From: Acidobacteriota bacterium
Lineage (GTDB): Bacteria > Acidobacteriota > Blastocatellia > Pyrinomonadales > Pyrinomonadaceae
DNA: 64,000 bases
Assembly (NCBI GenBank): GCA_003385635.1
Contig: QQUY01000002.1
Span: 62,001 to 126,000 of the forward strand
Reading direction: 5' to 3'
Shown: positions 22,345 to 45,228 of the stretch, piece after piece
Layout of the letters: each line of letters opens with the position of its first letter
Position numbering within the stretch: position 1 is the stretch's first letter
Notes under the pieces: model-generated
Databases searched by the model: none
What the model was told of the DNA's origin: nothing
What the model saw: only the letters and a program-made list of their open reading frames with translations
Translations under genes and position numbers: made by a program

Positions 22345-22371
22345 GTAAGGTTTTCTGAATCTTTCTCACAC
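22345..22371 (+). promoter_or_regulatory. Shared sigma-regulon promoter element, copy B
   Basis: GTAAGGTTTT at 22345-22354 and CTCAC at 22365-22369, spaced by 10 nt. It lies 65 bp upstream of the ATG of 22436-23017. It matches five other copies in the window in both boxes and spacing. Confidence 0.7.
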
Positions 22372-22435
22372 CACACTGTAAGCGCCGCGATCTCTGCGGC
22401 GCGAAATAAAGATCCAGATAGTGAGGAGATTCGTA

Positions 22436-23017
22436 ATGCTTAAATTGATCCTTTCAGCAACGTTGGCTGTTATCGGAATGACGACAGGCCTTTTTGCGGT
22501 AAGTTCGGTTTCTTCGTTCGTCGAAGGAGCCATCGTCAAGGCGCACTCTTCGGAGGCTGCTCCCGTGTTAAGCGGTGCGCAAGGCACGAAAGCGCAACTC
22601 CAGGATCCGACTTTTTCGGACTACCTGGTAGCAGTATCGAAGTTTAGACTAAAAAAGGTCGATCTAACGAGCCATCCGCAAGCCGGGATGTTCAGGACTC
22701 GTCTGCGGTACAAGATAGGCGAGAGCCCGAACTTCGCCGGCCGCTTCATAGTCACCTTTTGGGGCTGCGGTACGAGCTGTCAGATGGGTGCGATCATCGA
22801 CGTTCCGACTGGAAAGGTGTATTTCCCAGATGAGCTCAGTGTTCTGGAGAACGTCGGATTCGGGGACGACCCATACAAGACCGATGTCGAATATAGGCGC
22901 GACAGCGAGCTGTTCATTATTAAAGGTGTTGCGGGAAACTCGGACGAGCCGGGGACTACGTGGCTCCGCTGGGAAGGTGATCGGTTCGAAAAGGTCGCAT
23001 TCGTGAAGGCCGCGTAG
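22436..23017 (+). CDS. Exported WGCGTxC-domain protein (193 aa)
   Basis: The start is set by GAGGAG at 22423-22428, 7 nt before the ATG at 22436; an in-frame GTG at 22421 lies inside that ribosome site. There is a signal peptide (LILSATLAVIGMTTGLFAV) and then one domain with FRTRLRYKIGESPNFAGR, FWGCGTSCQMGAIID, TGKVYFPDEL and a C-terminal TTWLRWEGDRFEKV strand. It is clearly homologous to the C-terminal third of 21223-22296. Unlike that gene it carries the GTAAGGTTTT promoter element, so it probably belongs to the sigma regulon. Its biochemical role is unknown. Confidence 0.82.
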   Translation: MLKLILSATLAVIGMTTGLFAVSSVSSFVEGAIVKAHSSEAAPVLSGAQGTKAQLQDPTFSDYLVAVSKFRLKKVDLTSHPQAGMFRTRLRYKIGESPNFAGRFIVTFWGCGTSCQMGAIIDVPTGKVYFPDELSVLENVGFGDDPYKTDVEYRRDSELFIIKGVAGNSDEPGTTWLRWEGDRFEKVAFVKAA

Positions 23018-23082
23018 ATTAACAAGTAGCGCGGAACATCGAGATCGGGTGTGATCTTGGAAATCGATCGAATGGAAAAGGA

Positions 23083-23112
23083 AGGCTGTCTGACAAGGCA
23101 GCCACTTTTGCT
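23083..23112 (+). terminator. Possible intrinsic terminator after 22436-23017
   Basis: A short hairpin, GGCTG paired with CAGCC and a 10-nt loop, is followed by a T-rich stretch (ACTTTTGCTTTT). It lies 65 bp after the stop. Confidence 0.45.
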
Positions 23113-23208
23113 TTTCGGTATCAGGGAAAGCGGGCCGGCAAGAGCTGCACGACTATCAGTTGCCCCTAGTTTTAGCTTGGCGTGAAGTAGCTGACGGATC
23201 ATCACCTC

Positions 23209-23288: not shown

Positions 23289-23314
23289 GCAACTGGTCAA
23301 AAAGAGGAATCCGA

Positions 23315-25439: not shown

Positions 25440-25478
25440 GAGCGCAGGTTTTCAGGTTTCCCCAGGAGCAATTGTTCG

Positions 25479-26150
25479 TTACATCGTGGTCATATAGACC
25501 GTGATGAACTCGGAAACCTTCTGCCTGACTGATTCGAAATCCTCATCATTCAGGTTATCCTTCTTTGCCAATCCAGCGATATCCTTCAGCATCTGGACCT
25601 CTTCAGCCGATGCGTATGCGTTGCCTTCCTCTGCCATCACCTCGAGAGCCATCAGGTAGACCACGAGATCATCTTTTGCTTCGGGGTAAGCCGTCAGGCC
25701 TACATCCGTAAGTACCTTTGCGAGATCGAATGCCCACCTGCTTTCTCCCGAAAGCCTGGAGTAGATCGATCTCTCAGCTGCGATTACCGAGTTGAGAAGA
25801 TCTTCAAAAGTGAATCCCGGAGTATTGATCGTCTTGTCGATGATCATCTCTTCTTCGCTACCGCTAAGGTACTCCTGAAGATAGTCGAGCGACTCGGCGA
25901 GCATAGGACCATACTTCTCGTCTTTGGCACTAAGAAAAATGTAGATCTTGGTCCATTCAAATTCCGAAGAAAGAGCGAAGCTGCTGGTTCCCAGGTTGGT
26001 CTTTACTCCACCCGCGGCCATTGACCTCGACAATTCAGCGATCTCGCTGGATCTGTCGACCTGTGAAAGTTTTGTTGTTGAAAGAGCGAACGTGTTGGAT
26101 ACGAAGATGAAAGCTATTGCGATTGCGATAAAAAGTTTTGCTTTAGTCAT
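25479..26150 (-). CDS. Small exported helical protein (223 aa), regulon member
   Basis: A signal peptide (AIAIAFIFVSNTFA) is followed by an acidic, mostly helical chain with no cysteine and no recognisable domain (FEDLLNSVIAAERSIYSRL, DLVVYLMALEVMAEEG). GAGG lies 10 nt before the ATG. It is divergent from the sigma gene, has its own sigma-regulon promoter element 63 bp upstream and its own strong terminator, so it is a compact single-gene unit. I do not recognise the family. Its position and regulation make it a candidate effector, inhibitor or signal protein of the protease regulon. Confidence 0.75.
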   Translation of the reverse strand: MTKAKLFIAIAIAFIFVSNTFALSTTKLSQVDRSSEIAELSRSMAAGGVKTNLGTSSFALSSEFEWTKIYIFLSAKDEKYGPMLAESLDYLQEYLSGSEEEMIIDKTINTPGFTFEDLLNSVIAAERSIYSRLSGESRWAFDLAKVLTDVGLTAYPEAKDDLVVYLMALEVMAEEGNAYASAEEVQMLKDIAGLAKKDNLNDEDFESVRQKVSEFITVYMTTM

Positions 26151-26212: not shown

Positions 26213-26239
26213 AGGTGGAGGAAGGAGGGAAAACCTTAC
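26213..26239 (-). promoter_or_regulatory. Shared sigma-regulon promoter element, copy C
   Basis: On the minus strand GTAAGGTTTT runs from 26239 to 26230 and TCCAC from 26219 to 26215, at the common 10-nt spacing. The predicted leader to the ATG at 26150 is near 57 nt. It lies in the divergent region between the helical secreted protein and the sigma gene. Confidence 0.7.
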
Positions 26240-26374
26240 AGATTTTTTTTCGAACCATTGACTTATTCGCTTATGTGCCGCTTCTGCGGGAAAACTCTTG
26301 ACAGCTTACCCGCGATGAAATAAAGGTTTAGGGTCGTTGAAGTTGAAAAGTACCTGCTATCCCGACTGATTGCC

Positions 26375-26944
26375 GTGTCCTCTCATTTGCTGGAAAACGA
26401 AGCGGAGTTTGCGAAGCTCAGGCAGAAGCTGGTGATGTATTTCTCGGGCCGCCGCCTTACGCCGGCCGAGGACTACGCGGACGAGGTGATCTTCAGGGCG
26501 GTCACCAAGATCAGTGAGGGAGAGGAAGTGGAAGATCTCCGCAAGTATGTTTTCGGAATTGCGAAGTTCGTTTGCCTGGAAGCATACAAGGACCCCAAGA
26601 CCGTTGCCATCGACCATACGGGAGCGATCGGAAACCGGAAGGACGAGGACGATCCGGGCCACAGGGTTCCGGACCAGCTTGTTCAATCTCCTCCGGAATT
26701 CATCGAAACACCTGAAGACATCGATTGTCTCAGGCAATGCCTTAAAGAACTTCCCGAGGCAAAGCAGAACCTTTTGATCTCTTTCTACAGGATCAAAGGA
26801 ACGGACAAGACTCATATCGACCAGCGAAAAGAGCTTGCGAGCGAGAACGGAATGACCACAGATACTCTTTACACGAACATCTGCCGACTTAGAAAGAAGG
26901 TGGGCAAGTGTGTTGAGAACTGTCTGGATAAGAAAAATTCCTGA
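26375..26944 (+). CDS. ECF-like sigma-70 family RNA polymerase sigma factor
   Basis: This is 189 aa from a GTG; no ATG is available in the open frame upstream. The N-terminal half resembles region 2 (SGRRLTPAEDYADEVIFRAV, EEVEDLRKYVFGIAKFV). A linker with DPGHRVPDQL follows, and the C-terminal half resembles region 4 (CLRQCLKELPEAKQNLLI, NGMTTDTLYTNICRLRKKV as the helix-turn-helix). Regions 1 and 3 are absent, as in ECF factors. The next gene downstream is a membrane anti-sigma-like gene, 61 bp away. The factor most likely recognises the GTAAGGTTTT-N10-YTCAC element found on both sides of it and at four other loci. I see no copy of that element before the sigma gene itself. Confidence 0.85.
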   Translation: MSSHLLENEAEFAKLRQKLVMYFSGRRLTPAEDYADEVIFRAVTKISEGEEVEDLRKYVFGIAKFVCLEAYKDPKTVAIDHTGAIGNRKDEDDPGHRVPDQLVQSPPEFIETPEDIDCLRQCLKELPEAKQNLLISFYRIKGTDKTHIDQRKELASENGMTTDTLYTNICRLRKKVGKCVENCLDKKNS

Positions 26945-26950
26945 CGGAGT

Positions 26951-26977
26951 GTAAGGTTTTTCAGGATCCTCTCACTT
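26951..26977 (+). promoter_or_regulatory. Shared sigma-regulon promoter element, copy A
   Basis: GTAAGGTTTT at 26951-26960 and CTCAC at 26971-26975. It lies between the sigma gene stop and the anti-sigma-like gene, so the latter can be transcribed separately from the sigma gene. The predicted start site is near 26983. Confidence 0.72.
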
Positions 26978-27005: not shown

Positions 27006-27974
27006 ATGAGTGAAGACCCGAACAAACTGATAGAACCTTATCTTTATGGCGAACTCGCCGGCGAAGAGCTCGAGGCGTTCGAAGAGCAGTATTTTACCGA
27101 TGATGATCTGTTCGAACAGATAGAGACTCGGGAAATGCGGCTCATCGACCGCTATGTGCGTCGCGAGATGAGCCCGGAAGAGAAACAGAGATTCGAGAAT
27201 GGCTACCTTGTTTCTGCGGAAAGAAGGTCAAAGACAGCCGAAGCCGAAATGTTCCACAATGAGCTCGCAAAGATGAACCCGGCCGGCAAGGGATTCCTTG
27301 CAGGGCTCTTTGAGGGCATTTCGCTCAAAATATCTGTTCTTCAGATGGCGAGCGTCGCAACGATAGTTCTGATCGGTGTCGGTATTCTATGGACGCTCTG
27401 GATTTTGCAAACCAACCCTCAGCCGGTTGCGGAGACGAATGTTCAGGGTCCCGTCACTCCGATAGACGCAAATGTCGACCCGCCGATCAACGTTCCGCCG
27501 GCCCCTGATCCGAATGTCGGTCCCGGGGTGGAAGTTCCGAACGGAACCCCGACGGAAGACAAGTCTCCTGTCAATCCCGATTTTCGCGACATCATGCCTC
27601 CGGGCGGAACCGATCCCACGTTTGCGACGCCGATACGTCAGGAGATTTCGGAGACTCTTTCGGAGGGTGCGACCGGTTCTGTTGGAAGCTATAAGAGGAT
27701 CGTTATCGGGGAAGGCGTTCAGACGGTTCGGCTGACGCTTGTTCTGCCGGAAGGCTTTTCAGGTGATACTTACACAATAGACGTTCGGAACGCGGCCGGG
27801 TCCGTCGTTCTTTCGAGCGATGCAGCAAAACCTTTCGGTCCGAACAACCAGAGGCTGTCGATCCGGACGGTCCCAGGAGCTCCGTTCGCTGCCGGGAGGT
27901 ATGTTGTTACCGTAAAGCCTTCCGGAAGGGCCGAATCGGTGAGGTACGGATTTGAAGTGGTGGAAGAGAATTAG
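27006..27974 (+). CDS. Single-pass membrane protein, anti-sigma-factor-like
   Basis: This is 322 aa from the ATG at 27006, with GGAGG at 26987-26991 (spacing 14). A GTG at 26985 is in frame but overlaps that site and would sit almost at the predicted transcript start. The N-terminal cytosolic part (1-90) has the LIEPYLYGELAGEELEAFEEQ pattern, which resembles the helical N-terminus of anti-sigma factors but lacks the zinc-binding HxxxCxxC. A membrane segment lies at 113-134. A Pro-rich linker follows, then an exported beta-sandwich (about 225-322, QTVRLTLVLPEGFSGDTYTI). The likely role is to hold the ECF factor and release it on an external cue. It carries the regulon promoter, giving negative feedback. 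Confidence 0.78.
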   Translation: MSEDPNKLIEPYLYGELAGEELEAFEEQYFTDDDLFEQIETREMRLIDRYVRREMSPEEKQRFENGYLVSAERRSKTAEAEMFHNELAKMNPAGKGFLAGLFEGISLKISVLQMASVATIVLIGVGILWTLWILQTNPQPVAETNVQGPVTPIDANVDPPINVPPAPDPNVGPGVEVPNGTPTEDKSPVNPDFRDIMPPGGTDPTFATPIRQEISETLSEGATGSVGSYKRIVIGEGVQTVRLTLVLPEGFSGDTYTIDVRNAAGSVVLSSDAAKPFGPNNQRLSIRTVPGAPFAAGRYVVTVKPSGRAESVRYGFEVVEEN

Positions 27975-27998: not shown

Positions 27999-30900
27999 TT
28001 ATCTCCAGTTCCCTATGAGAACGAAAGGCGACCAGTAGTAAGGGTGAGCATAGGGTCTTTCGGGATCTCTTCTGAAAACAGGTGCGATGTCACCTTCACC
28101 TTCCACCGTGACCGGATCGGACCGCCTTGTCGAGTTGGACCTGTCCTCTCCGATCCTGCCCTCGCGCATTCGCTGCTGGGCCATCTGCAGCGCCTCCGCT
28201 TTCGAGACCGAAGGATTCTCGTTCCTTATCAGGTAGAACTCGGACATAAGAAGCCTCGTCGACGAATCGACGACCGGCCAAAGGGAGGCAAGTATGGCCT
28301 TTGCTCCCTTCTGCTGTGCGACGTAGCCGAACCCCTCGATCTCGCGACCGGTCGAATCGCTTCCGGCTACGGCCGTTTCACAAGCGGACAATGTCAGAAG
28401 GTCGACGCCCGAGAAAGATATCCTGGGATCATTACGCATCTGTTGAACGGTAAGGATGTTCCCGCCTCCGAGCAGCAGGAATGAATTGCCTGCATCACCC
28501 GCATTCAAACTGAAATGCGACGCGATATGGACGATCCCCGGCCCACCCAAAAGACCGTCGACGAACCCATCCTCGGTAAAACTCTTGTCCAGAAGGCTGA
28601 CGCCGGGAAGCACTCCTTCGTCATTCTCGTCCGTCTTCACTATTGACGAGATCTCGTCCGGAACGGCCGGCAGCGCAGAGAAACTTATGTTTCGGGTGCC
28701 AGCCGGATCCGAGACCGTCGCCGCCTGCGAAACCCCAAGGCCGAGTACGCTCGCATCCGGGCGCGAGGTCGTGCCGAGCTTTGTACGGCTTGCTAGCGTG
28801 ATGACGACGTTGCGGTACTTTTCACCCAGGTACTTCTCTCCGTCCCAAAGCGCCGAAAGAGGAATCAGCCTCAGATTGCCGTCAAGCGACCAGAGAAGCG
28901 TCTTTATCTTTGTGCCTTCGAGCTCTTTCTCGATCCCTGCGAAGACTATGTCGTAGATCTCCTTGCCCAACGGCCGAGGATCAAGACCCGGATCGCGCAG
29001 GACCTGCCGAAAGCTGATTATCTTCTTGTCCAGCACTTTTGCTGATGTCTCTGACTTCCCAGCGACCTTTACCGTTGGCGTAACGAGGATCGTCCGGAAT
29101 CGATCCTCACCCACCAACGTGTAAACAAAAGCGATGTCATCTCCCCACTGTTTCAGATCCGCTTGCAGTGAAAGGCTCTCGCCCAGATCGTTGGTCCTAT
29201 ATGGCCGCTTGCTGAACTCCTCAGCAAGACCATTAAGGAACTCCCTGAACCGTCTATTCGCAACGGTTATCATATCGCCTAGCTCCCGATGCTTCTCTTT
29301 CTCAGCTTCGGAAAGAACAATTCCCTTCTTTTTCAGATCATTCAGGTTCTCGAACTGTTCACCGAGCCTCGCAAGGTCCTCCGAGCGATCTTCAATAGTC
29401 TGAATCGCTGACAGCTCCTCACTGGTGTACTCCGCTCGTCCGTCTAGTTCCCCGGATCCGGCCCGCTGCCTTACAAATTTGAGAACTTCCTGCTTCTTGA
29501 GCAAACCGAGCACGTTCTCGGCCTCGATCAGACGACCTTGCGCAATGAGCTCCTCGGCAAGCTCCCTATAGACTTCCTCGACCTGTCCTTTGAAAGCGTT
29601 CTGTATGGATTCGTCCAGGCCCCGGATCGACTGGCGGATAGCCTGATAGGAGTTCACAGCCCGTTTCAGGTATAGAACTCCCAATCGCGGCACGCCGATC
29701 TCAAGGTACGCAATTCCCATTTCTCTGGAGGTCTGCGCCTCGCCAAGCCCGTCCCTTTGCAGTTTCCAAATGGCAAGAGCTCTATTAAATGCTTCAATCC
29801 CTGCTTTCGCATTCCCTTTCCTGAGACGCGCAAGCCCCAGGCAGTGAATAGCAGCTCCCCGGCCACTCAGATCGTCCGAAACCTCGCTAACTTCGAGTGC
29901 TTCAGCGCACAGCGCCTCGGCTTCGGAGTAGTTCCCCGATAAAAGCGGCAAGCGCGCCAGATTGTTAAGAGCGGACGAGATCCCGAAGTTTTTCCCAAGA
30001 TCTCGCCAAATCTCTAGCGACTTCTCAAGCTCAGAACGGGCCTTTTCCAGATCGCCCAGATCCGCATAGACATCCCCTAGATTGTTTCGGGTAACTGCTT
30101 CAGCAGTCCTGTTGTTTGTCGCCTGTGCGACCTTGAGCGCTTTGGAATAGTTCACGAGGGCAAGCTCGGAAAGCCCGAGATTGTTGAGAACGGCGTCGAT
30201 GTTGTTATAGCTCACCCCCTGGCCGGCTATATCTTCTGTCTCAATGCGTATCGCCAGAGACTCCTCCAAAAGTCTCAGTGCCCGTTCCCACTCGCCTACC
30301 GACCTGTTGACCATTGCGATGGTGTTGATCGCCACAGCCTCTCCACGACGGTCCTTGATTTCCCGCTTCAGCTTAAGCGCGGAATCAAGGGAGGCGAGAG
30401 CTTCTTCATATCGTTGAAGATTTGCTTTCGTCGTACCGATCACCAAAAGGACCACACTCTCGCCCCGCTTGTCGTTCAGTTCACGCGCAAGTACGAGCGA
30501 CCTTTCTAGCAGTTCGAGCGCTTTCTGCCTGTTCCCCAGTTGATTGTGGACCGCTGCTATATTGTTGAGCATCGCCGCCACGTTGGCCTTTATTCCCTCT
30601 CTTTCGTAAATCGTAAGCGCGGAAGAGTAATGGTCGAGAGCCTTTCTCGGGTCTCCCAGGAACAGATAGATCGAAGCCAGGTCGCTGTGCAAGGCGCTTT
30701 CCGCATCTTTCTTGCCCAGTTCGACAACCATTTGCAATGCGCGGGTGTAAAAGTCGACAGCCGATCTTTTGTTTCCCAACCGTGACGAAACGCTTCCGAG
30801 CCAGGCCAACGCCAGAGAAGCCGACTCTTTTTCACCGGCCTCCAGCAAGACGTCGAATGCGAGTTGGAGAACCGGTATGGAGCGCTTCGCGTTCTCCTCG

Positions 30901-31541
30901 CCGGTAGAGGTGAACATTTCCCGTGCGTTGGCCATCAACTTGAGCCCTAAGCGGACCCTTGCGGAGCGTATTTCCTCCAGCGTTGCTTCCGCCAGGTACT
31001 CTTCGCCAATCTCCGACCATTCTTTGCTGATCGACTGAAGCCGGGCGAATACATCCGGATTAGAAGCGTCCGAACGAGCGGCTTTCAGTGCGAGTACAAA
31101 GCGCCGTTCCAGTTCGATCCTTTCCGAAACCTCTCTGCCTGCCGGAATGAGCGTGCGGATTACAGAATAGGATCCCGTGGCATGACCGCTGCCCTTGGAG
31201 GTGACTTCAAGGACGAACGAGCCACCGCTTTGAGCTGTGACGGTAAGCGATTCGATTCCGTCTCCGCCTGTCGTTGCGTCCATTTCGGCGATCAGTTCGC
31301 CGGAATCCGATTTCACGGAAAGAAACAGATCGATCCCATTTTGTTGGACAATTATGCGGGAAGCCGTATCCTCATCGAGTTCAAACCCGAAACGAATGGA
31401 CTCCCCGCTTTTGATAGTCCCGCTGTACTCAACCCCGGCGTCGAGCCTTCCAGGCTCATCGGCAGACTGGGCAGAAGTGCCGACAGAGCCGAGAACGAAA
31501 CCGACGGCGAGTACAAGTAAGAGGATCGATCTGTTCTTCAT
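27999..31541 (-). CDS. Exported TPR-CHAT protein (caspase-superfamily peptidase)
   Basis: This is 1,180 aa. It has a signal peptide (SILLLVLAVGFVLGSVGTSA), then a PPC-like beta-sandwich (about 30-118), TPR repeats (about 230-650, including AALNNLARLPLLSGNYSEAE) and a coiled linker. The C-terminal CHAT domain (about 820-1180) carries the dyad His in HIASHF (near 1009) and Cys in LSACETA (near 1054), then GAKAILASLWPVVD. CHAT proteins are separase/caspase-fold cysteine peptidases, commonly cytoplasmic in bacterial immunity; the signal peptide puts this one outside the cytoplasm. It starts 57 bp after the stop of the subtilase 31599-33668 with no promoter element of its own, so the two form an operon. 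Confidence 0.92.
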   Translation of the reverse strand: MKNRSILLLVLAVGFVLGSVGTSAQSADEPGRLDAGVEYSGTIKSGESIRFGFELDEDTASRIIVQQNGIDLFLSVKSDSGELIAEMDATTGGDGIESLTVTAQSGGSFVLEVTSKGSGHATGSYSVIRTLIPAGREVSERIELERRFVLALKAARSDASNPDVFARLQSISKEWSEIGEEYLAEATLEEIRSARVRLGLKLMANAREMFTSTGEENAKRSIPVLQLAFDVLLEAGEKESASLALAWLGSVSSRLGNKRSAVDFYTRALQMVVELGKKDAESALHSDLASIYLFLGDPRKALDHYSSALTIYEREGIKANVAAMLNNIAAVHNQLGNRQKALELLERSLVLARELNDKRGESVVLLVIGTTKANLQRYEEALASLDSALKLKREIKDRRGEAVAINTIAMVNRSVGEWERALRLLEESLAIRIETEDIAGQGVSYNNIDAVLNNLGLSELALVNYSKALKVAQATNNRTAEAVTRNNLGDVYADLGDLEKARSELEKSLEIWRDLGKNFGISSALNNLARLPLLSGNYSEAEALCAEALEVSEVSDDLSGRGAAIHCLGLARLRKGNAKAGIEAFNRALAIWKLQRDGLGEAQTSREMGIAYLEIGVPRLGVLYLKRAVNSYQAIRQSIRGLDESIQNAFKGQVEEVYRELAEELIAQGRLIEAENVLGLLKKQEVLKFVRQRAGSGELDGRAEYTSEELSAIQTIEDRSEDLARLGEQFENLNDLKKKGIVLSEAEKEKHRELGDMITVANRRFREFLNGLAEEFSKRPYRTNDLGESLSLQADLKQWGDDIAFVYTLVGEDRFRTILVTPTVKVAGKSETSAKVLDKKIISFRQVLRDPGLDPRPLGKEIYDIVFAGIEKELEGTKIKTLLWSLDGNLRLIPLSALWDGEKYLGEKYRNVVITLASRTKLGTTSRPDASVLGLGVSQAATVSDPAGTRNISFSALPAVPDEISSIVKTDENDEGVLPGVSLLDKSFTEDGFVDGLLGGPGIVHIASHFSLNAGDAGNSFLLLGGGNILTVQQMRNDPRISFSGVDLLTLSACETAVAGSDSTGREIEGFGYVAQQKGAKAILASLWPVVDSSTRLLMSEFYLIRNENPSVSKAEALQMAQQRMREGRIGEDRSNSTRRSDPVTVEGEGDIAPVFRRDPERPYAHPYYWSPFVLIGNWR

Positions 31542-33770: not shown

Positions 33771-33797
33771 ATGTGAGGGAGATCCCGAAAACCTTAC
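33771..33797 (-). promoter_or_regulatory. Shared sigma-regulon promoter element, copy D
   Basis: On the minus strand GTAAGGTTTT runs from 33797 to 33788 and CTCAC from 33777 to 33773. It precedes the subtilase-CHAT operon. The predicted leader to the ATG at 33668 is roughly 95 nt. Confidence 0.72.
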
Positions 33798-36800: not shown

Positions 36801-37275
36801 CGGCAAATCTTTCTCCGTCCGGAAAGAACTGCAGATACCCGTGACGCCTCAATTTCTCAGGTTTGGGAAAAGTAACATTGAAACGTTCCGTGCCGCTTTC
36901 CAGGTCCCACTTGCGTATTCTTCCTTCAGTTGTAAGTGCAACGATCTCTTTCCCGTCCGGAGAGAAAGTCAGCGCCGCCGCGAACCCCGGGCGTCCGCTC
37001 TGCAGCGTCCTGAGTTCGCGACCGCTTTCGCTATCGCGAATCTTCACGGTCATATCCAGGGAGGCCGACGCGACGTAGCGGCCGTCACGGGAAAAAGCTA
37101 CGACATATACAGGCAGGTTGTGACCCGTCTGGACCACCATTTCTGCGACAGGGGCGTTCGATTCGCTATTGCCAACGTCACTAGTCCCAGTCTCGAAACC
37201 GGCGGAGATAAGCAACGGCAAGATCAGTATGAGAGCCGCTAGCCGAAAATGCTCAGACATTCTGTTATTAGCCAT
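33877..37275 (-). CDS. Exported WD40-caspase fusion protein 1
   Basis: This is 1,132 aa from the ATG at 37275; an ATG at 37260 is also possible and puts the signal peptide first, and neither has a clear Shine-Dalgarno. A hydrophobic signal (LAALILILPLLISAGF) is followed by about 11-13 WD40-like blades (VVAFSRDGRYVASASLDMTV, VVYSPDGRSLYSLAADGK). A beta-sandwich linker comes next (about 690-830, ARDLKLFRNGSLVHSW), then a caspase-like C14 domain with H941 in YSGHGVARNDRFYLLPHD and C992 in VDACNSGQALE. It follows the plain caspase gene by 38 bp and is probably co-transcribed with it. It is a paralogue of 40016-44185. The propeller probably serves as ligand- or partner-sensing region for the peptidase. 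Confidence 0.9.
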   Translation of the reverse strand: MANNRMSEHFRLAALILILPLLISAGFETGTSDVGNSESNAPVAEMVVQTGHNLPVYVVAFSRDGRYVASASLDMTVKIRDSESGRELRTLQSGRPGFAAALTFSPDGKEIVALTTEGRIRKWDLESGTERFNVTFPKPEKLRRHGYLQFFPDGERFAVCGLDQGIVSVRNSSDGSEILRFEVPTSTYTFSISPDGTELATTGGVNEINVWSTSDGSRLRVLSGHSEPVASVVYSPDGRSLYSLAADGKVIAWNAETGEANRIYDGIRMWRGKVVLGPDGRSLLITDTSEVNRLDLQSGAVSKLPVQRRRGAGDAALSDQGDLIAFGLEDGRVEIVDLADGQSKGPDTSHSDFRMFAGLSPAGNSIAVGGRNETFLFDLDNGEMARLRRGPGWVINAAFSSDGNYLASVDAQRQLTIHDLNTHEIVKSFRTLEQTPVMLFASGASTLITAGAGPDVFVYDLTDGASGQRKPRKIAHGEIVEPGKWAVLALAVSPEGNVLACGSGNGNIALLELSTGRVLRRFKAHTAMINTLEFSKDGRFLVSEGIEGKIKVWDYPGNSLLAEIDALAPDADRKVDKYAPGFLMRSKISPQVQGSRLRLGAVPSGGVEFRTMDAKQTVMTLMLFRDGNWVATTPEGFFDGSEKGWNRFIWRFNGNTFDWGEPEIFFNEFFRPGLVQEVLTGNSPVAPPGRDLASTDRRQPGIKVTSKDENKGDEGVVRVSRRSIEVSVEIEDNNSRKRQPDHPESSGARDLKLFRNGSLVHSWKGDLFAKDGKEGCKALPASGRESPRRVRCTTVVAADEGGNSLSAYAFNTQNVRSRESSVSAKGLNPGELSRTIYILGVGVNEYADSALNLNYAVPDASKFAETLTAEQMNGNWFDSQVAVVLADSEATRSNIVYALERFSRGSEAIPPAGADKAVLQKLEAVERSGPGDAVIVFYSGHGVARNDRFYLLPHDFRPRERWRDENSISDLDLEQLFEPIDATGILLIVDACNSGQALEAEDSRRGPMNSKGLAQLAYEKGMFILTASESFQLATETSKLGHGLLTYSLLEGLKSGSNGLLRNADLDRDRAVHAREWFDFATAMVPGLQRARARTRSSDPLVVEGEEEAPPQTPRAFYRRESSRNRFVVARR

Positions 37276-37313
37276 CCAGAACCAGTTTCTGCAAACGTTG
37301 AAACAAAGTACGT

Positions 37314-39572
37314 TTAGTCTTTGGAAACGACGATCATGCTTGCTTCCGCTACACCCCATTCGTCGATGCCGATGATTGCTGAAGATCCTGAGGCCGAATC
37401 CCTGGTGCCCACGATCGCCTGTTTCAGAAGCCTCGAAAGCGGGTTACCCGCGGTCTTCGAATCCCTTGTCACATTCCCCTGCGCAAGCGGGGTGAAATCC
37501 GAGTACCCGGTCGTCGCTATTATCTTTATTCGCTCAATACCGAAAGGCCTCGTAGTTCGGAAGAAATCTGTCAGCCCGGTTCCGCCTCGGCGCATCAGCG
37601 GGCTGATACCCCCGATCTGGTTCCGCATACGGTTGTTGGGGTACCAGACGTTGATCGCCCCGTCCGTGCTCAGTCCTAAAACAGTTATGTAGAGGGGTCT
37701 GCTGTAATTGTTGATGACGCGGAGCCTTAGAAAAGAACCGACCGGCAAACGGAACGAATTGTCAGCCTCCATCTCGAGCACGACATCTTCACCCGGCACG
37801 AATCGGTTCCGTTCGTTCATCTTGCCTTTGTTCTCGAGGACCTCAACGGCGATCGAGTCACCGATCTCGCTGCCCACGTTATCGAGTGCCGAAAGGTTCC
37901 TTTGCCTTGCGTATTTTGTAAGTGCGTCAGAGATCTTTGCAGGAGCCGATGGATCGGAGACCGGCACAAAAAATTCGAAGAGTGGTTCGCCGTTGGAAAC
38001 CTGGGCAATGTAAAAAACAGGGTCGGACGGTTTGACAGCTTCGCTTCGCGGAATCCTGAGCCCGCACTTTTCGGCCTTTGCGACGGCAGACAAAACCGTA
38101 GAAGTGTCGATCGGGCCACAAAAAGCCGCCCGGAATCCGTCTACCCTTACCGCCACTGCGGATAAGCCGGCAGGAGCGCCCTTTATTGAACTCTCTTCGA
38201 ATGCGATCAGTCCCCTGGAATCCCTGAGCAGAATAGTCCTCACTTCGTCCCGGACCCTTGCCAGAGGTGAGTCGCTAGCTCCGCTTTCACGTTCAAGCCC
38301 AAGATCTACCCGCAAGGGCTCGGAACCGAACATTGGCGAAAGGATCCTTACGAGATCGCTCTTCGGATCGATCTGTTTTTCAGACGCAAGCTTGTAAATC
38401 GCGGAAGACCTGTTCGCAGCGACCTCGGTTACCTCACCTTCCGCGATCTCTGCGCCAGTTCTGCTCACGACTGCGACCAGCGATCCGGTTCGAAGGCCGA
38501 ACATAGACCCGGCCGCGAACTCGAACCGCGAGCTTTCTTTGTCGACCGCTACGACAGGTATCGGGATCTGACCTTCTTCAAAGCGGCCTCCGAAAACCAG
38601 CTTTCGCTCGTCACCAAGGAGTTGAGGCGTCTGATCGGAATTCGTGTGATTGACCTCCGCAGCCACTCTCCTTATCAGCTCCCCGTATGTCGTGTCCGGA
38701 GCCGCCTCGCGCATCGCCCGTTCAAGATAGAAACTGAAAACGCCCCTCGAAGTTCCATCGGGCATCTCCAGTTCGTATGCCCGCCTGTCGGGGCTTGTCG
38801 AAGAAATGACGACAAAGGAATCTCCCGGCGAGACCAGCCCTTCGTTCGAGGTGTCCGGCGGCGAGCCCTTGCCTTTGTAACTTATCCGGTAGGCCGGCTG
38901 CTTCCTTTTATCGAGAGGAACCTCCCTTGAGCGGTTACTGCCGCGACTTATGGTCCCGGAGTTGCAGCTATCAAAGACGAGAACCGCATTCGATGTCTGT
39001 TCGGTCAGCTCCGCGATGAGGACCCCTATCTCGTCATCGCGAATATCGTATCCGTCGGCATCGCCGGTTGGCGCTGCTGCGTTCGAGTCGCCGTCCCTCC
39101 TTGAATCGAAAGGAACAATGGTCTCGTCAAAGCCGTCGGGCTCCTCTTTCTTGCTTGCGAATTCAGGCGGCGCTACGTGAGACCCGTGACCTGAATAGTG
39201 GAAATATACAGACGCCTCGTTACCGGTCTGTTCCCTGTATCGCCGAGCGTTCTCAGTCAGGTGGCTACGAAACGAACTGATTATGTCCTTGGCAGTCGCC
39301 GCGTCGTTCTCGAGAACCAGGACGTTCTTTTCCGGAAAACCGAACTTCTCACTCTTAAGAAGTGCGGCCATCGCCCTTGCATCATTAACGCCTCCCTCGA
39401 GGGGAGGAATCGAGCCCTTGTATGCGTCGATCCCGACGAGAAGCGCGAACTTTCCGTCGCCGGCGTCTTCAGCCGGGGCCGCTTCGCTCATTGCCCAGGG
39501 CCGGGTTACCTGAACGGCGGATAGAACCCCGAACACTAGCGCCAAAAACATTGTTCTCTTAAGCATCCTCAT
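37314..39572 (-). CDS. Exported caspase-like C14 peptidase with C-terminal DUF4384-like domain
   Basis: This is 752 aa from the ATG at 39572, which has GGAG 11 nt upstream and sits directly before the signal peptide; an ATG at 39593 is the alternative. The caspase domain starts at FALLVGIDAYKG, with catalytic H129 in HYSGHGSH and C203 in VFDSCNSG, then YLERAMREAAPDTTYGELI. A long middle region follows, and near the C-terminus a DUF4384-like sandwich (LPVGSFLRLRVINNYSRPLY, DGAINVWYPNN). The regulon element 39613-39639 lies just upstream, and WD40-caspase 1 follows after 38 bp. It is a type I-like metacaspase by layout, exported rather than cytosolic; the residues that set cleavage specificity were not resolved. 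Confidence 0.9.
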   Translation of the reverse strand: MRMLKRTMFLALVFGVLSAVQVTRPWAMSEAAPAEDAGDGKFALLVGIDAYKGSIPPLEGGVNDARAMAALLKSEKFGFPEKNVLVLENDAATAKDIISSFRSHLTENARRYREQTGNEASVYFHYSGHGSHVAPPEFASKKEEPDGFDETIVPFDSRRDGDSNAAAPTGDADGYDIRDDEIGVLIAELTEQTSNAVLVFDSCNSGTISRGSNRSREVPLDKRKQPAYRISYKGKGSPPDTSNEGLVSPGDSFVVISSTSPDRRAYELEMPDGTSRGVFSFYLERAMREAAPDTTYGELIRRVAAEVNHTNSDQTPQLLGDERKLVFGGRFEEGQIPIPVVAVDKESSRFEFAAGSMFGLRTGSLVAVVSRTGAEIAEGEVTEVAANRSSAIYKLASEKQIDPKSDLVRILSPMFGSEPLRVDLGLERESGASDSPLARVRDEVRTILLRDSRGLIAFEESSIKGAPAGLSAVAVRVDGFRAAFCGPIDTSTVLSAVAKAEKCGLRIPRSEAVKPSDPVFYIAQVSNGEPLFEFFVPVSDPSAPAKISDALTKYARQRNLSALDNVGSEIGDSIAVEVLENKGKMNERNRFVPGEDVVLEMEADNSFRLPVGSFLRLRVINNYSRPLYITVLGLSTDGAINVWYPNNRMRNQIGGISPLMRRGGTGLTDFFRTTRPFGIERIKIIATTGYSDFTPLAQGNVTRDSKTAGNPLSRLLKQAIVGTRDSASGSSAIIGIDEWGVAEASMIVVSKD

Positions 39573-39612: not shown

Positions 39613-39639
39613 TAGTGCCGGATTCGGGAAAAACCTTAC
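39613..39639 (-). promoter_or_regulatory. Shared sigma-regulon promoter element, copy E
   Basis: On the minus strand GTAAGGTTTT runs from 39639 to 39630 and GGCAC from 39619 to 39615. It precedes the caspase and WD40-caspase 1 genes. The predicted leader is short, about 35 nt to the ATG at 39572. Confidence 0.7.
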
Positions 39640-39889: not shown

Positions 39890-40024
39890 ATGCAAGAATA
39901 TAAGGAACTTATACTCTCAAGCGATGCTGGGTCAAGATTTTCGGTGAGGGAGTTTCCAGCTCGTCAGGACACGTCCCTGTACCCGCGCGACAAGTTCGGG
40001 TACCAGCTTCGACTGTCAATCTAG
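39890..40024 (+). CDS. Candidate small ORF (44 aa)
   Basis: ATG at 39890 is preceded by a strong purine-rich site (GGAGAAGAGG, 4 nt spacing). The product begins MQEYKELILSSDAGSRFSV and ends in LRLSI. It has no signal peptide and no similarity I recognise. It is convergent with WD40-caspase 2 and overlaps its 3' end by 9 bp. The rest of the 39594-40015 gap holds promoter element E and nothing else I can call. This could be a chance frame or the remnant of a longer gene. Confidence 0.3.
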   Translation: MQEYKELILSSDAGSRFSVREFPARQDTSLYPRDKFGYQLRLSI

Positions 40025-43000
40025 GTTTGCTGCTATAAGGAACCGGTTTCCCTCTGACTCTCTTCGATAGAAGGCCCTGGGAGTCTGAGGCACTGCTGCC
40101 TCTTCGCCTGCCACTTCTACCTTGTCGGACCTTGTCCTTGCACGGCTTCTCTGGAGGCCCGGCACCAGATCGACCGCGTAGTCAAACCATTCCCTCTCGA
40201 ACAGGCTTCCGTCCCGGTCTTTGTCCGCGTTCAGAGGCCCGCCGTTCTCCTGCCTTTTCAGGCCTTCAAGAAGGGAGTATGTGAGAAGCCCGTGACCGAG
40301 CGCCGATGTCTCGCGTGCGAGCTGAAAGCTCTCGGACGCAGTGACGATGTACATCCCTTTTTCGTACGCGAGTTGTACCAGGCCCTTCGAGTTCATCGGC
40401 CCTCTACGTTTCTCTTCCGCCTCGAGTGCCTGGCCCGAGTTGCAGGAATCGATGATCAGCAGTATCTGCCCCGAGTCCACAGGCTCTATCAATCGCTCTA
40501 GTTCAAGGTCCGAGACGCTGTGACTCCTAAGCGTTCGCAGCTTCTCGTCTCCGACCGTCCTTACTTCCTCATCGACCCCCAGATCGTGAGGCATCAGGTA
40601 GAACCTGTCCATGTCCGCGAACCCGTGGCCGGAAAAGAACACGATGATCGCGTCCTCGGGTTCGGCAATCTTAATCTTTGACAGCCTCTTTCGCAGTTCG
40701 CCGGTGATGCCCGGAGGCGCCTCCGCATCTTCGCCCTTCGAGAATCTCTCCAGCGCGTAGAGTATGTTCGCCTTCGTCGCCTCCTTGTTTGTAAGAAGGA
40801 CCGGCTCCGGGGCCTCGTATCTTCCGAGATCGATCTGATTCTTCCTGATAGCGGAGGACAGTTCGACCGCATCGGGAACGGCGTAACTGAGATCGTAGTC
40901 CGGATTGGCGTATTCATTGATCCCGATCGAGAGAACATAAAGAGATCCTTTTCGCTTCAGCGAGTCTCTTCCGGTAAGCAACGCGGTAGCATCGCGGGAC
41001 TTCACGTTCTGGGCGTTGAACACATAGCTGGTCAAACGGTTTTCGCCCGCGACGACGGGAATCTCGACCGAACAGAGGGCCCTTCTCGGTCCGTTCCCTT
41101 CCTTCGGCTTCAGCTGTTCACATCCGTCGGCTTTTCCGAGCCCGAAGACATCTCCCTTCCAGACCTTTACAAGCGATCCATTCCGAAACAACCTCAGGTC
41201 TTTTGCCCCGCTTGTGTTCCCGTGGTTTGGCTGTCTTTTCGCTTCCGAGTTGTCGGTCACTTCTAACGCAACCGTTGAGAGTCTCCCGGAGTTCGCATCC
41301 TGACCATCCGCCGAGCCGCCTGATGTCAAGATCTCCACCTCGGGCTGCCGCCGATCGATATTCTCAAGCTCCTGCCCATCCGGCGCCTTGGGCGGGCTGC
41401 CCGACATCATTTGCTGAAGAAGGCCGGGATAGTAGAAAGCATTGAAATAGATCTCGACCTCCCCCCAATCGAACGTGTTGTTGTTAAAGCGCCAGATCAT
41501 CTGTCTCCAGGCGTCTGGCGTTCCGTCGAAAAAGCCTTCGGGCGTTGTGACCGCCCAATTATTGTTAGTAAGTGAGAACAACCTGCAAACGTCTTTGCCG
41601 GAATCGATCTCGACGATCTTGGTCGAGTCATCGTTGAGCCTTACGAACAAACTTTCGGCGCCGGGTGCGAAGGCGACGTTTGTGACGAAACCCTCATCAA
41701 CGCCGATCGTCCCAAACGCTTCTCCTGTTCGTGACCGCCATAATGTAGATTCTCTTCTTTCCTTGGCAATTGTCGCGAACATTTCCGAGTCGTCCGAGAT
41801 CGATAGCGAGACAATGCTCTCTGTCTTGGTCAACCACTCTACTTTGGCAGTTGAAATGTCGATGAACCCGACCGAGGCACTCGCTTCTCTCTCAGCCGCA
41901 GTCAGGAGCCGGTCGAGCTCCTTTTGACTTGGCGGATCACTACCGGATTCTGTGTCGGGGCGGATCTGTTTGAGGTCAGGCCACCTGTCCGCACCGATCA
42001 GAACATAAGACCCGTCCGGGGCCACCCTGATCTCGCGAATGACGCTCCTTATCCTTCCGTCAGCATTCAGTTCGAGCTTTGTTGTCGCGCCGGTCGAGAG
42101 ATCAACCAGCATATACTCGGTGCCGGTCAATTCCGGGTCGATCGTGGCTACGACGGCATTTTTGCCTCCGGGGAGAACTGCAAGCAAAGGCTCAACGGCT
42201 CCAAAGGTCGCGACGCTCTGAAGTCGCAGGTCATTGAGATCAACTTTGAAGAGCGTGCAACTCTTCGACTCGAAATTGAGCCGTGTGGATTCGCAGGAAT
42301 AAAACGCGAAGAGTTCCCCAAGCGGGTCAGTTCCCGCATAGTAGCCGTTCTCCCCGCCGACCAGGAACCTGCCTCCCTGCAGCTTTATCTCTTGCGTAAA
42401 AGCCACGCTTTTGTTTGCGATATCGAAGATGCTCACGCGCTCGCTGCTCGCGACAAAGACGTATTTATCATCCGACGAGAACCTAACAAACCGGGTTTCG
42501 AAAAACTCAACGAACGTATCGCGCACAAGTTCATATGGTAATTCGAAGATTTTCCTGCCCGTACCGGTTTCTATGACTTCCAATGCATCGTCTCTCGCAC
42601 TGTCGGGCTTGGTCGATTCTTGATCATCTGTGTTGCAAGTCTCTCTTACTGCCAGGGCGCCGGAATTCGATATCTGGATCAAACAGTCCGAGAAAGGACT
42701 CGAAACCAGCGATACGTCGTCTCCGTAGAATGACACCTCTCCGGTATCGAGGTCCCAGACCGTCCGTCCCGACTGAAGTGCATCGCCGTTGCCCAGAACG
42801 TTGAGCGTAGGACCGCTCCCGGAATTCGTGACAGCTCTGAGCTCGGACCGGGGTCGACATACTGTTCCGCCGTTAGCTTCAGTCACTTTCCCTAAATCGA
42901 CGATCGTGACCAGGTTCGAGCCAAAGTATCCGCCCAATCTACCGCCTGAATGGACCTCGCCCTCCGCGATCAAAAGACTGGTACCGTCGGGCGAATACTC

Positions 43001-44185
43001 AAGCGAATTGACACTTGAAGCCCCCGAATCGCAATTCTGTAATGGCTTTCCAACTTCCCAGTTTCCTGAATCGGAGCGTGTAAGGGAACAGATCCCTTTT
43101 CCGAACCCACACGAGATCGCTAGACGTCTGGAATCGGGAGAGAAGGCCATTGGCCCATAGAACCCTTGCGGATCTTCGCCGGGTTCCGCGGTCGGCATGT
43201 GAAAGACGGAACCGGGAGCGACCGCTCCCTTGAACAGGTTCTCGACATTCCACAACTCAAGGGAATACGCAACGTCGTCGGTCGAGATCTCACGGTGGAC
43301 ATTTGGGAACGAGACCGCACTTGCAAGATATTTGCCGTCCGGGCTGAAAGTAAGATTTGCACCGATACTATTCGGCGAATAAGCGGAGCCACCGCCTTCG
43401 TTTCCCTTACTGAACCTGAGATTCGCTATCTGCCGTCCATCACCGACAGAAAGGACCCTGATCCCCTTTTCACCTCTTAAGCGGATGGCAAGAGCGGATC
43501 CGTCGGGGCTTAGGGCCGCGGACACTACGGATAGAGTATCGGCCTCGACTCCCGGGATGAACTCATTTTCGACCTCCCCGATCTCCACAGAATTCGAACT
43601 AAACAGTACTTTGTTCTCCTGCCCCCAAACCCTGACCGTTCCGTCAAGCGACGCCGAGACTATCTGATCTCTGACTTTGGGCAAATGGAATAATGAGACG
43701 ATCGGTGCGGTGTGACCCTTCAGTTCTCGTTTCAGCTCACCCGTCCGGACATTCCACACTCGAATGTCGAATCGCTCAGGTTGTTCGGTCTGAAGCACCG
43801 CGGACCCTTGTCCCTTTGCCTCCTCCACTAACCCGGCGCCGACCGCAAGGTCGTTGCCATCTCCAGAAAAACTCAATCGGTATGCCGATCCGTTGTGTCC
43901 GGTCAGGTACCGCAGAGCGCGGCCCGTGCCGGAATCCCAGATCACGACGACACCTTCATCGCCGGCGGTTGCTATCAGACGGCCGTCAGGAGAATAGACC
44001 GCCTGATTTATCCTCCTCGGATGTCCCGTCTGCACAACCAGCCGCGCTGCGTCGACCTGTTGAGCGGCCTGTACTTTCGAAGAGCCCGTAGGAAATGAAG
44101 GCAGGAAAAGCATTGCCGAAACAAATAGGACTGCCGGCAAACTTGCCATACCCAACCTGTTGAACTTTGCAATGTTCATCCTCAT
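40016..44185 (-). CDS. Exported WD40-caspase fusion protein 2
   Basis: This is 1,389 aa. Signal peptide (LPAVLFVSAMLFLPSFPTGS), a long WD40-like region (AVYSPDGRLIATAGDEGVVV, LKGHTAPIVSLFHLPKV), a beta-sandwich linker (KDLRLFRNGSLVKVWKGDVF) and a C-terminal C14 caspase-like domain with H1187 in FSGHGFADMDRFYLMPHD and C1248 in IDSCNSGQALEAE. It shares the same domain order as 33877-37275, and the block after the catalytic Cys is nearly identical (GPMNSKGLVQLAYEKGMYI, LGHGLLTYSLLEGL, then PQTPRAFYRRES at the end). Its WD40 region is longer. No regulon element lies directly upstream; the closest is element F, before the LprI-like gene, so transcription would have to read across 399 bp. Confidence 0.9.
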   Translation of the reverse strand: MRMNIAKFNRLGMASLPAVLFVSAMLFLPSFPTGSSKVQAAQQVDAARLVVQTGHPRRINQAVYSPDGRLIATAGDEGVVVIWDSGTGRALRYLTGHNGSAYRLSFSGDGNDLAVGAGLVEEAKGQGSAVLQTEQPERFDIRVWNVRTGELKRELKGHTAPIVSLFHLPKVRDQIVSASLDGTVRVWGQENKVLFSSNSVEIGEVENEFIPGVEADTLSVVSAALSPDGSALAIRLRGEKGIRVLSVGDGRQIANLRFSKGNEGGGSAYSPNSIGANLTFSPDGKYLASAVSFPNVHREISTDDVAYSLELWNVENLFKGAVAPGSVFHMPTAEPGEDPQGFYGPMAFSPDSRRLAISCGFGKGICSLTRSDSGNWEVGKPLQNCDSGASSVNSLEYSPDGTSLLIAEGEVHSGGRLGGYFGSNLVTIVDLGKVTEANGGTVCRPRSELRAVTNSGSGPTLNVLGNGDALQSGRTVWDLDTGEVSFYGDDVSLVSSPFSDCLIQISNSGALAVRETCNTDDQESTKPDSARDDALEVIETGTGRKIFELPYELVRDTFVEFFETRFVRFSSDDKYVFVASSERVSIFDIANKSVAFTQEIKLQGGRFLVGGENGYYAGTDPLGELFAFYSCESTRLNFESKSCTLFKVDLNDLRLQSVATFGAVEPLLAVLPGGKNAVVATIDPELTGTEYMLVDLSTGATTKLELNADGRIRSVIREIRVAPDGSYVLIGADRWPDLKQIRPDTESGSDPPSQKELDRLLTAAEREASASVGFIDISTAKVEWLTKTESIVSLSISDDSEMFATIAKERRESTLWRSRTGEAFGTIGVDEGFVTNVAFAPGAESLFVRLNDDSTKIVEIDSGKDVCRLFSLTNNNWAVTTPEGFFDGTPDAWRQMIWRFNNNTFDWGEVEIYFNAFYYPGLLQQMMSGSPPKAPDGQELENIDRRQPEVEILTSGGSADGQDANSGRLSTVALEVTDNSEAKRQPNHGNTSGAKDLRLFRNGSLVKVWKGDVFGLGKADGCEQLKPKEGNGPRRALCSVEIPVVAGENRLTSYVFNAQNVKSRDATALLTGRDSLKRKGSLYVLSIGINEYANPDYDLSYAVPDAVELSSAIRKNQIDLGRYEAPEPVLLTNKEATKANILYALERFSKGEDAEAPPGITGELRKRLSKIKIAEPEDAIIVFFSGHGFADMDRFYLMPHDLGVDEEVRTVGDEKLRTLRSHSVSDLELERLIEPVDSGQILLIIDSCNSGQALEAEEKRRGPMNSKGLVQLAYEKGMYIVTASESFQLARETSALGHGLLTYSLLEGLKRQENGGPLNADKDRDGSLFEREWFDYAVDLVPGLQRSRARTRSDKVEVAGEEAAVPQTPRAFYRRESEGNRFLIAANLD

Positions 44186-44584
44186 GGTCTTTGCGAACGT
44201 TGTCAGGTAACTCCCCTGATTGCAGAGAATCTATAAGTTCACGCACCAAAGGGTCAATGTTCTCCTGGTTGTAGTCCGCGGGCGTAAATCGATCCCGTCG
44301 ATCTATGCCGTTCGAGGCCCCGATTGCAGGTCGGGGAAATCGCGAGGATCGTTCTTGAGATCCGCTCTTTGAGGATCGTTCACGCGAGTTTCCCGCAGAA
44401 TGCACTACCGGTCTATGATGGCCCACTTTCGCATTGCCGGCCTTCGTACTTATTGGAATGACTTAGACCTAAAAACTCCCGCTTAAGTGGGTCACTGTTT
44501 CGGGGTCGGGCCTGAATCGGAACAACACCTCGAGGGGCCCCGCCCCGGCCATTCGAGGTGCTGATTCTATCGACTTTAAGCCTC
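44186..44584 (-). other. 399-bp gap between WD40-caspase 2 and the LprI-like gene
   Basis: No convincing gene. On the minus strand an open frame of about 80 codons reaches from 44426 to the caspase start, but its composition is arginine/serine-rich and it continues as a shadow through the caspase gene. A hairpin, CACCTCGA at 44526-44533 paired with TCGAGGTG at 44553-44560, could be a weak terminator of the LprI-like gene; its T-tract is poor, so read-through is plausible. Confidence 0.4.
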
Positions 44585-45139
44585 TTACCCGTTAGTCTCG
44601 TGATAGATCTGCTGAAAGGCCTGCAAGGTATTCGCTCGTCCCTTCACCCACTCGTACTTCTGATATGCTCTCATCGGTACATACATCGTGCCTGTTCCTT
44701 GAATCGCATACAGCAGGTCGAGATCAGCTTCAATCGATCTCTTCCAGCTCTCCTGTGCAACCGAAAGCGCCTTTCCCTGTTCCCCGTCCATTTTGGCAGT
44801 CAGTTCATTGAAAGCGGCGTTCATTTTCTTCTCCCAGATGTCAGTCGCAGTTCGAATGCAAGCGACCTGACCCGCCGTTGATTGATACGTATCGATGCAA
44901 GTGTCTAGTGCCTCATCAACGCATTTTTCGCGCTTCGCTTCCGATTCATCGCTGCCCGTACATTCCTTTATTTTTGCGTTCAGGAAGTCTGCTTCGTTGT
45001 CCTGCCTGACCTCGGCTCCCTCGAAACCGGCCGAAGCGCCGATTGTAGCGTTGTCGCTGCTGATCGCGGCCAGATTCCCGACCATTAGCAAAGCCAAAAT
45101 GATGCCGCCCAAACTTATGATTCCTCGTTTCCTGTTCAT
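44585..45139 (-). CDS. Exported LprI-like (DUF1311) protein, regulon member
   Basis: This is 184 aa with a signal peptide (GIISLGGIILALLMVGNLAA). The mature part has four cysteines in the LprI N-terminal layout (EKCVDEALDTCIDTY, VACIRTATDIWEKKMNAA), followed by LSVAQESWKRSIEADLDLLY and a final YEWVKGRANTLQAFQQIY helix. LprI-type proteins are small periplasmic helical proteins; some are reported to inhibit lysozyme. The usual late GGT/Cys segment is partly replaced here by GTGTMYVPMR. The regulon element F sits 63 bp before the start codon, so the gene should be co-expressed with the exported proteases. Confidence 0.8.
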   Translation of the reverse strand: MNRKRGIISLGGIILALLMVGNLAAISSDNATIGASAGFEGAEVRQDNEADFLNAKIKECTGSDESEAKREKCVDEALDTCIDTYQSTAGQVACIRTATDIWEKKMNAAFNELTAKMDGEQGKALSVAQESWKRSIEADLDLLYAIQGTGTMYVPMRAYQKYEWVKGRANTLQAFQQIYHETNG

Positions 45140-45201
45140 AGATTTTCTCCTTTAACTCATTATTGGTAAGTCCGAGGACTGAATGCCTCGCTATACCCCT
45201 C

Positions 45202-45228
45202 TAGTGAAAGAACTGCTGAAAACCTTAC
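45202..45228 (-). promoter_or_regulatory. Shared sigma-regulon promoter element, copy F
   Basis: On the minus strand GTAAGGTTTT runs from 45228 to 45219 and TTCAC from 45208 to 45204. It precedes the LprI-like gene, with a predicted leader near 57 nt, much like copies B and C. Confidence 0.7.

Follow-up and report, generated by a model that had tools for sequence, protein, structure and literature searches.

A local set of promoter-like elements, probably read by a divergent ECF-type sigma factor, precedes caspase, CHAT and subtilase genes in an Acidobacteriota bacterium

To our knowledge, bacterial caspase homologues are common, and little is understood about the conditions and purposes of their production. 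We analyzed a 64,000-nucleotide stretch of an Acidobacteriota genome (G000:C2:62001-126000; the genome has 4.13 Mb in three contigs), hereafter the window, in which genes of this kind lie behind copies of one short bipartite element. The original prediction took this element to be a promoter read by a neighboring ECF-like sigma factor. We asked whether the element is indeed a promoter, which factor reads it, and how far the resulting regulon extends.

An exact search found GTAAGGTTTT six times in the window, as compared to a mean of 0.03 and a maximum of 1 in dinucleotide shuffles, which bore out all six predicted sites and their strands. In each of the six, CAC stands 12 bases after the decamer, as bases 23 to 25 of the element. 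The second box had been described as YTCAC-like after a 10-base spacer; because YTCAC is exact only at 22345, 26951, 33797, and 45228, while TCCAC occurs at 26239 and GGCAC at 39639, the invariant part of the box is CAC. All six copies share the same decamer, and the spacer and the flanks vary among them. Alignment to SigW suggests that the first base of the element corresponds to position −35, which would place the predicted transcript start about 35 nt downstream of that base.

The first predicted promoter element (22345–22369, plus strand, N10-CTCAC) precedes the gene of a WGCGT-motif protein (22436–23017, plus strand, ATG 22436), which has no Pfam family and is a putative secreted member of the regulon, with export borderline by hydropathy. 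Two such putatively secreted paralogues, both without a Pfam family, lie at 21223–22296 and 22421–23017. The second element (26215–26239, minus strand, N10-TCCAC) is located 89 bp before the gene of another candidate member, a small secreted-looking protein (25479–26150, minus strand) with an N-terminal hydrophobic stretch and a predicted model that is all alpha (mean pLDDT 76). The third (26951–26975, plus strand, N10-CTCACT) sits between the stop codon of the sigma gene and the ATG of the anti-sigma gene. The fourth (33773–33797, minus strand, N10-CTCAC) precedes the gene of a putative secreted subtilase (31599–33668, minus strand; PF00082, 155.3 bits), followed after 57 bp by the gene of a TPR-CHAT protease, also probably secreted (27999–31541, minus strand; PF12770, 172.7 bits, with TPR repeats); the two genes likely share a transcript. 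The fifth (39615–39639, minus strand, N10-GGCACT) precedes the gene of a predicted secreted caspase-domain protein (37314–39572, minus strand; PF00656, 87 bits), the start of which may be 39572 and which also resembles DUF4384 at 17.8 bits, below the cut-off of 27. This gene is overlapped by a WD40-caspase gene (33877–37359, minus strand; PF00656, 43.1 bits, with WD40 repeats), likely on the same transcript. The sixth (45204–45228, minus strand, N10-TTCACT) lies 89 bp before the gene of an LprI-like, putatively secreted protein (44585–45139, minus strand; PF07007, 35.7 bits). A second WD40-caspase gene (40016–44185, minus strand; PF00656, 28.4 bits), 400 bp after the LprI-like gene and without an element of its own, is possibly reached by read-through. 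All six copies are intergenic and face a gene, as had been predicted, given ATG 33668 as the probable start of the subtilase gene; the copy at 33797 falls, however, inside a mechanical frame opening at TTG 33893, a start that we rejected in favor of ATG 33668.

The assignments of the anti-sigma, subtilase, CHAT, caspase, WD40-caspase, and LprI genes were confirmed by Pfam. All three caspase-domain proteins score above the PF00656 cut-off (21.4 bits), placing them in Peptidase C14, and their translations carry SGHG and DSC/DAC motifs, which we take to be the catalytic His-Cys dyad of caspases. That all products are exported or membrane proteins is consistent with the N-terminal hydrophobic stretches detected by simple hydropathy, with later start codons assumed for the subtilase and the first WD40-caspase, but the WGCGT protein is borderline. 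A whole-genome scan for the caspase family gave two matches, both in the cluster, where the third, weaker domain was seen at the protein level. The corresponding CHAT scan also gave two matches, one in the cluster and the other at G000:C3:385428-386186 (182.5 bits). The window further contains an Acido-Lenti-1 small RNA at 50877–50922 on the minus strand (39.9 bits, gathering score 37).

Next, we considered the element in the whole genome. The statement that no other copy of the decamer exists is true within the window, but across the whole 4.13 Mb there are 11 exact decamers, of which five lie elsewhere, and a backwards control also yields 11. None of the five outside decamers is among the 22 genome-wide matches to the bipartite pattern with at most two mismatches, and the reversed control gives 21 such matches. 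The number of pattern matches in the genome is thus not above chance. The expectation of nonrandom placement holds in that the six intact bipartite copies all fall within 23 kb, but not for the total count. Judged by this placement, the regulon looks local rather than genome-wide.

The candidate reader of the element is encoded at 26375–26944 on the plus strand. The 189-amino-acid protein, with the recognition helix TLYTNICRLRKKV, matched NCBIfam TIGR02937 at 40.5 bits (E 2.1e-10), slightly below the cut-off of 42.9, in an alignment spanning residues 18–178 and model positions 16–163 of 165. Its size and regions are those of ECF factors, which comprise only the sigma-2 and sigma-4 regions in about 160–200 residues. 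The match to TIGR02989 reached 47.6 bits (cut-off 124.55), and that to NF041236, the model of the type III-E CASP-sigma, 26.7 bits (cut-off 100); a Pfam search of the protein gave no match. Five homologues scored 27.9–34.3 bits against TIGR02937, further below the cut-off than the window protein, and the homologue in genome G049 (locus L108) is absent from the match list of this model. Close relatives of the window protein occur in Aridibacter famidurans (72% identity), an Acidobacteriota MAG (79%), and Aridibacter sp. (75%), which points to an Aridibacter-like Acidobacteriota as the source of the window. By its sequence, the protein is probably a short, divergent ECF-type factor. The gene itself is likely preceded by a sigma-70-like housekeeping promoter, TTGACA-N17-TAAAGG (26298–26326, plus strand), a block conserved in the A. 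famidurans alignment; its −10 part is a weak match, and a simple promoter scan did not return this site.

The adjoining gene encodes a probable membrane anti-sigma factor (27006–27974, plus strand). The original assignment holds, with a zf-HC2 match of 25.3 bits (cut-off 22.2) over 20 residues only, whereas the proposed start does not: because GTG 26985 coincides with the predicted transcript start, and because three of four homologues begin at the residue corresponding to Met-8 of the window protein and the remaining one two residues earlier, the start is probably ATG 27006. The predicted model (mean pLDDT 63) has helices at residues 12–96 and 118–143 and strands at 219–327, and simple hydropathy detected a hydrophobic stretch at residues 110–140. 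In this architecture, helices in the cytosol would be followed by a single transmembrane helix and, at the C-terminus, by a beta sandwich. The protein thus has the features of a class I anti-sigma factor (ASDI), namely, an N-terminal helical domain, a gene adjoining that of the sigma factor, and one transmembrane helix, with sigma binding as a prediction. We found no Hx3Cx2C zinc motif, as residues 1–96 lack cysteine in all five anti-sigma sequences compared. This motif is given as present in about 56% of ASDIs and hence is not required (PMC7406223).

The original prediction had proposed a comparison of intergenic regions in related genomes. Copies of the box in A. famidurans precede three orthologues, in one case in degenerate form, as well as a further caspase gene. 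An exact box again lies between the sigma and anti-sigma genes (L039 5296–5320). Upstream of the LprI orthologue (L063, 47% identity), GTAAGGTTTC-N10-TCCACTA is positioned 93 bp before the start, as compared to 89 bp in the window; GTGTAAGGTTT, CACTA, and the ribosome-binding stretch are the best-kept blocks, while the surrounding DNA has diverged. The orthologue of the helical protein, 28% identical and at the same place beside the sigma gene, has a weaker copy, GTAAGGAATT-N10-GCCACT, 82 bp upstream (L039 4585). On another contig, GTAAGGTTTC-N10-CACAC (L065 2790) lies 83 bp before a caspase gene whose product is 26% identical to that of the window. A decayed GTAAGGTCGT is found at L039 3720, the place matching that of the WGCGT gene at 22436, which is itself absent; the contig has a counterpart of the first WGCGT paralogue (21223–22296) only. 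Among the four matches with at most one mismatch in G002, three precede orthologues or caspase-type genes, and the one at L064 precedes none.

We then turned to the family as a whole. Homologues of the sigma factor (E 1e-8 or better) occur at 128 places in 67 of 119 family genomes, and we assembled 76 loci of up to 20 kb each around them (1.18 Mb in total). In this set, G.AA.GTTTT-N12-CAC matched 31 times at this spacing, 0 to 2 times at each of 13 other spacings, and never in reverse at the same spacing. Three motif classes were defined: class A, GAAA[TCG]GTTTT-N12-CACT, with 27 matches; class B, GA[CT]A[CT][AG]TTTT-N12-CAGT, with 11; and class C, GAAAT[AG].TTT-N8-TGTCT[AT]A, with 9. Because class A was refined from the matches to the general pattern, and B and C were derived from sites next to sigma genes, with some further C and B copies already known, these counts are descriptive and not blind. 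In the 76 loci, none of the three classes matched at 14 other spacings or in reverse. Matches that do not adjoin a sigma gene number 17 for A, 5 for B, and 4 for C. Class E, GTAACCTTTT-N12-CACT, was present in three loci, all of one clade, and 46 of 77 sigma loci are without any of the five motif classes. Seven loci with an ALANRAQ helix belong to these 46. In two class A loci (L114 and L096), two tandem elements 32–33 bp apart precede a single gene; judged by eye, the target genes presumably encode secreted delta-60 repeat proteins.

Across all 119 genomes, GAAANGTTTT-N12-CACT occurs at 58 places as compared to 36 in reverse (sums of the table), and GTAASSTTTT-N12-CACT at 13 as compared to 15. 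Of these 13, four belong to the window cluster or to its counterpart, and another four are located at a sigma or caspase/WD40 gene. The family-wide totals are weak, and the signal sits in the location next to sigma genes.

The motif class also follows the recognition helix of the local sigma factor. In 30 of the 31 loci that bear a motif, the helix corresponds to the class, a level of agreement found in 0 of 10,000 shuffles, which, like those used below for the tree, treat related loci as independent; none of the 31 loci bears two classes. The region-4.2 helix reads LRI[RK][IV][CS] in class A (11 loci), LR[NS]R[AV][VL] in B (7), [LV][SAT]IR[AT]C in C (7), LKVKAC in E (3), and LYTNIC with the GTAAGG box of the window type (2). 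The sole exception is L103, which combines LKVRAC with a class A site. Counted in reverse and by eye, 30 of 36 loci with these helix types show the class (11/11 for A, 7/11 for B, 7/9 for C, 3/3 for E, and 2/2 for the window type), and six lack it. On a tree of 77 sigma proteins, the full set of labels requires 14 changes as compared to 27.6 after shuffling, with 0 of 200 shuffles as low. Class A is borne by all 11 members of one clade (support 100/95). Taken alone, class B needs 5 changes (7.7 shuffled), whereas class C, also with 5 changes (shuffled mean 4.9), is not clustered, because its labels, inside one clade of nine, fall among unlabeled rows. The branch of the window sigma factor is long and unplaced in the tree, so gene content and likeness of the box are the grounds for relating this factor to class E.

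As described for the SigW structure, the reader of G-35 is R175, that of the −34 base is T171, and that of the −31 pair is K170 (PMC6713349). When aligned to SigW by eye, G-35 and its arginine are constant in all classes. By the same alignment, class E factors pair lysine with C at −31, as does SigW, and the window factor pairs tyrosine with G. The helix code is not simple, as classes A and B have arginine at the reader of −31 together with several different bases.

The elements take a consistent position relative to the sigma gene. The 57 class matches are distributed over 31 loci. In 23 of these, a match falls between −15 and +300 relative to the sigma stop codon, and no locus of the 31 has an element within 450 bp upstream of the sigma frame. 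Only 6 of the 57 lie inside a frame of 150 amino acids or more. Since the element follows the sigma gene and does not precede it, the anti-sigma gene, and not the sigma gene, is likely fed back in the window and in most loci of classes A to C. In L108 (class E) and L103 (class A site), the sigma gene belongs to an operon behind the element, and in L132 (class E) the element precedes the sigma frame by 511 bp, slightly more than the 450-bp limit. Judged by this gene order, the class E clade differs, and members of the family seem to have diverged in how the feedback is wired.

The link to caspase genes extends beyond the window. In G049, an apparent operon (L108 6206–15812) behind the class E element encodes, in order, a caspase with weak DUF4384 similarity, a second caspase, the sigma factor, an anti-sigma factor, and a TPR-CHAT protein; identity to the window proteins is 27% for the first caspase, 35% for TPR-CHAT, and 27% over 134 residues for the anti-sigma factor. 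Among the 150 caspase matches listed for the family genomes, 13 lie within 15 kb of a sigma homologue, where about 1 is expected; two of them are in the window cluster and one is in its A. famidurans counterpart. Thus, the caspase–sigma link is real but confined to some clades. G006, of the same genus, has class A sites and gave no caspase match.

Together, we consider it highly probable that the six GTAAGGTTTT-N12-CAC copies are promoters read by the ECF-type sigma factor of the cluster; the adjoining membrane anti-sigma factor likely keeps this protein inactive. The original reading of the element is supported by its conservation in A. famidurans, by the fixed spacing in sibling loci, and by the agreement with helix and tree; it is refined on two points, as the element comes after the sigma gene and the regulon seems local rather than genome-wide. 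The element might instead be the site of a separate transcription factor. Ten bases are long for an ECF −35 box, many of which are shorter, but the two boxes stand at one fixed spacing, and the first starts with G and has a base order resembling SigW/SigE-type −35 elements. The tracking of motif class by the sigma recognition helix, together with the presence of no other regulator among the cluster genes scanned, makes a separate factor improbable. Even less credible is that the copies are a small dispersed repeat or passengers of gene duplication without a regulatory role. The cluster does contain paralogues (two WGCGT proteins and three caspase-domain proteins), and an identical decamer in six copies would fit this origin; yet the copies vary in spacer and flanks, most of the genes that they precede belong to unrelated families, and box and spacing are kept between species while the flanks have diverged.

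A larger regulon deserves more weight, although we regard it as unlikely. In that case, the sigma factor would read the element, degenerate sites would be scattered over the genome, and the caspase cluster would be only a part of the output. Fifteen of the 22 bipartite matches with at most two mismatches are outside the window, and a frame with a secreted-looking product starts about 243 bp downstream of the one-mismatch site at C1:1969065. As the reversed control yields nearly as many matches, the outside sites look like background, and many sites of the sibling classes are also near their sigma gene.

In the preferred reading, a local regulon under its own sigma factor, the sigma gene would be transcribed from its sigma-70-type promoter, and an envelope signal would free the factor from the anti-sigma protein. 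Free sigma would then activate the subtilase/TPR-CHAT operon, the caspase/WD40-caspase operon, and the LprI-like gene, as well as the genes of the two small secreted proteins and of the anti-sigma factor, which, once newly made, would end the response. Such a circuit would deliver exported caspase-clan and subtilisin-type proteases in a self-limiting burst. A bolder extension, which we offer tentatively and hold to be doubtful, is an envelope response with exported caspase-clan and subtilisin proteases as its main output. All scan-detected caspase genes would then obey a single sigma factor that has a −35 code of its own, and cleavage of the outer part of the anti-sigma factor by the exported proteases may make the burst both triggered and self-limiting. 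If true, it would be an extracellular counterpart of the CRISPR TPR-CHAT/sigma switch. Detected caspase genes behind one dedicated promoter would offer a direct handle on them through the release of a single sigma factor. The family also provides a natural series of sigma factors in which helix and −35 element have apparently changed together in five classes, useful for work on the ECF −35 code.

As predicted here, the window system shares with SigW-RsiW and RpoE-RseA an ECF-size sigma factor whose helix-turn-helix recognizes a −35 box with G as its first base, and a membrane anti-sigma factor with a cytosolic helical domain. It differs from SigW and SigE in its −35 sequence, GTAAGG, and, as aligned by eye, in a tyrosine where those factors have lysine or arginine. 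Known pairs of the SigW-RsiW/RpoE-RseA type carry the element before the sigma gene, whereas in the window it comes after. This wiring is already known, as it has been published for SigH-RshA of Corynebacterium glutamicum, where the sigma gene is described as transcribed from housekeeping promoters and a sigma-dependent promoter as driving the anti-sigma gene alone (PMC3489674). The same source proposes a quick shut-off and reports that 83 genes in 61 units rose without RshA; relative to that account, the window regulon looks local and encodes exported proteases.

Parts of the gene content also have precedents. In ECF54, the sigma gene is accompanied by subtilase and CHAT genes, and the group is described as working without an anti-sigma factor (PMC8999054). 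The window has both the subtilase and the CHAT gene, but an anti-sigma gene follows its sigma gene, and it is by this gene context alone that we set the cluster apart from ECF54 as described. Caspase homologues sharing operons with sigma-70 factors are reported from Myxococcus and others (PMC3501461), and caspase systems with ECF sigma genes have been noted as well (PMC8195603). The operons of the former report belong to genera of other phyla, and relative to that report the promoter element and the regulon are features of the window cluster. In type III-E CRISPR, CASP-sigma is accompanied by its inhibitor Csx30 and by the TPR-CHAT protease Csx29, which is described as cutting Csx30 after RNA sensing (PMC10028731). 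An ECF-type sigma factor, its inhibitor, and a TPR-CHAT protease are thus common to both systems as presented there. In contrast, the window proteases bear likely export signals, its anti-sigma factor is predicted to be a membrane protein, and no CRISPR part appeared among the window-cluster genes scanned. The window system belongs to a known kind, the ECF regulon; as far as the literature was searched, its −35 code and its output of exported caspase, CHAT, and subtilase proteins are new.
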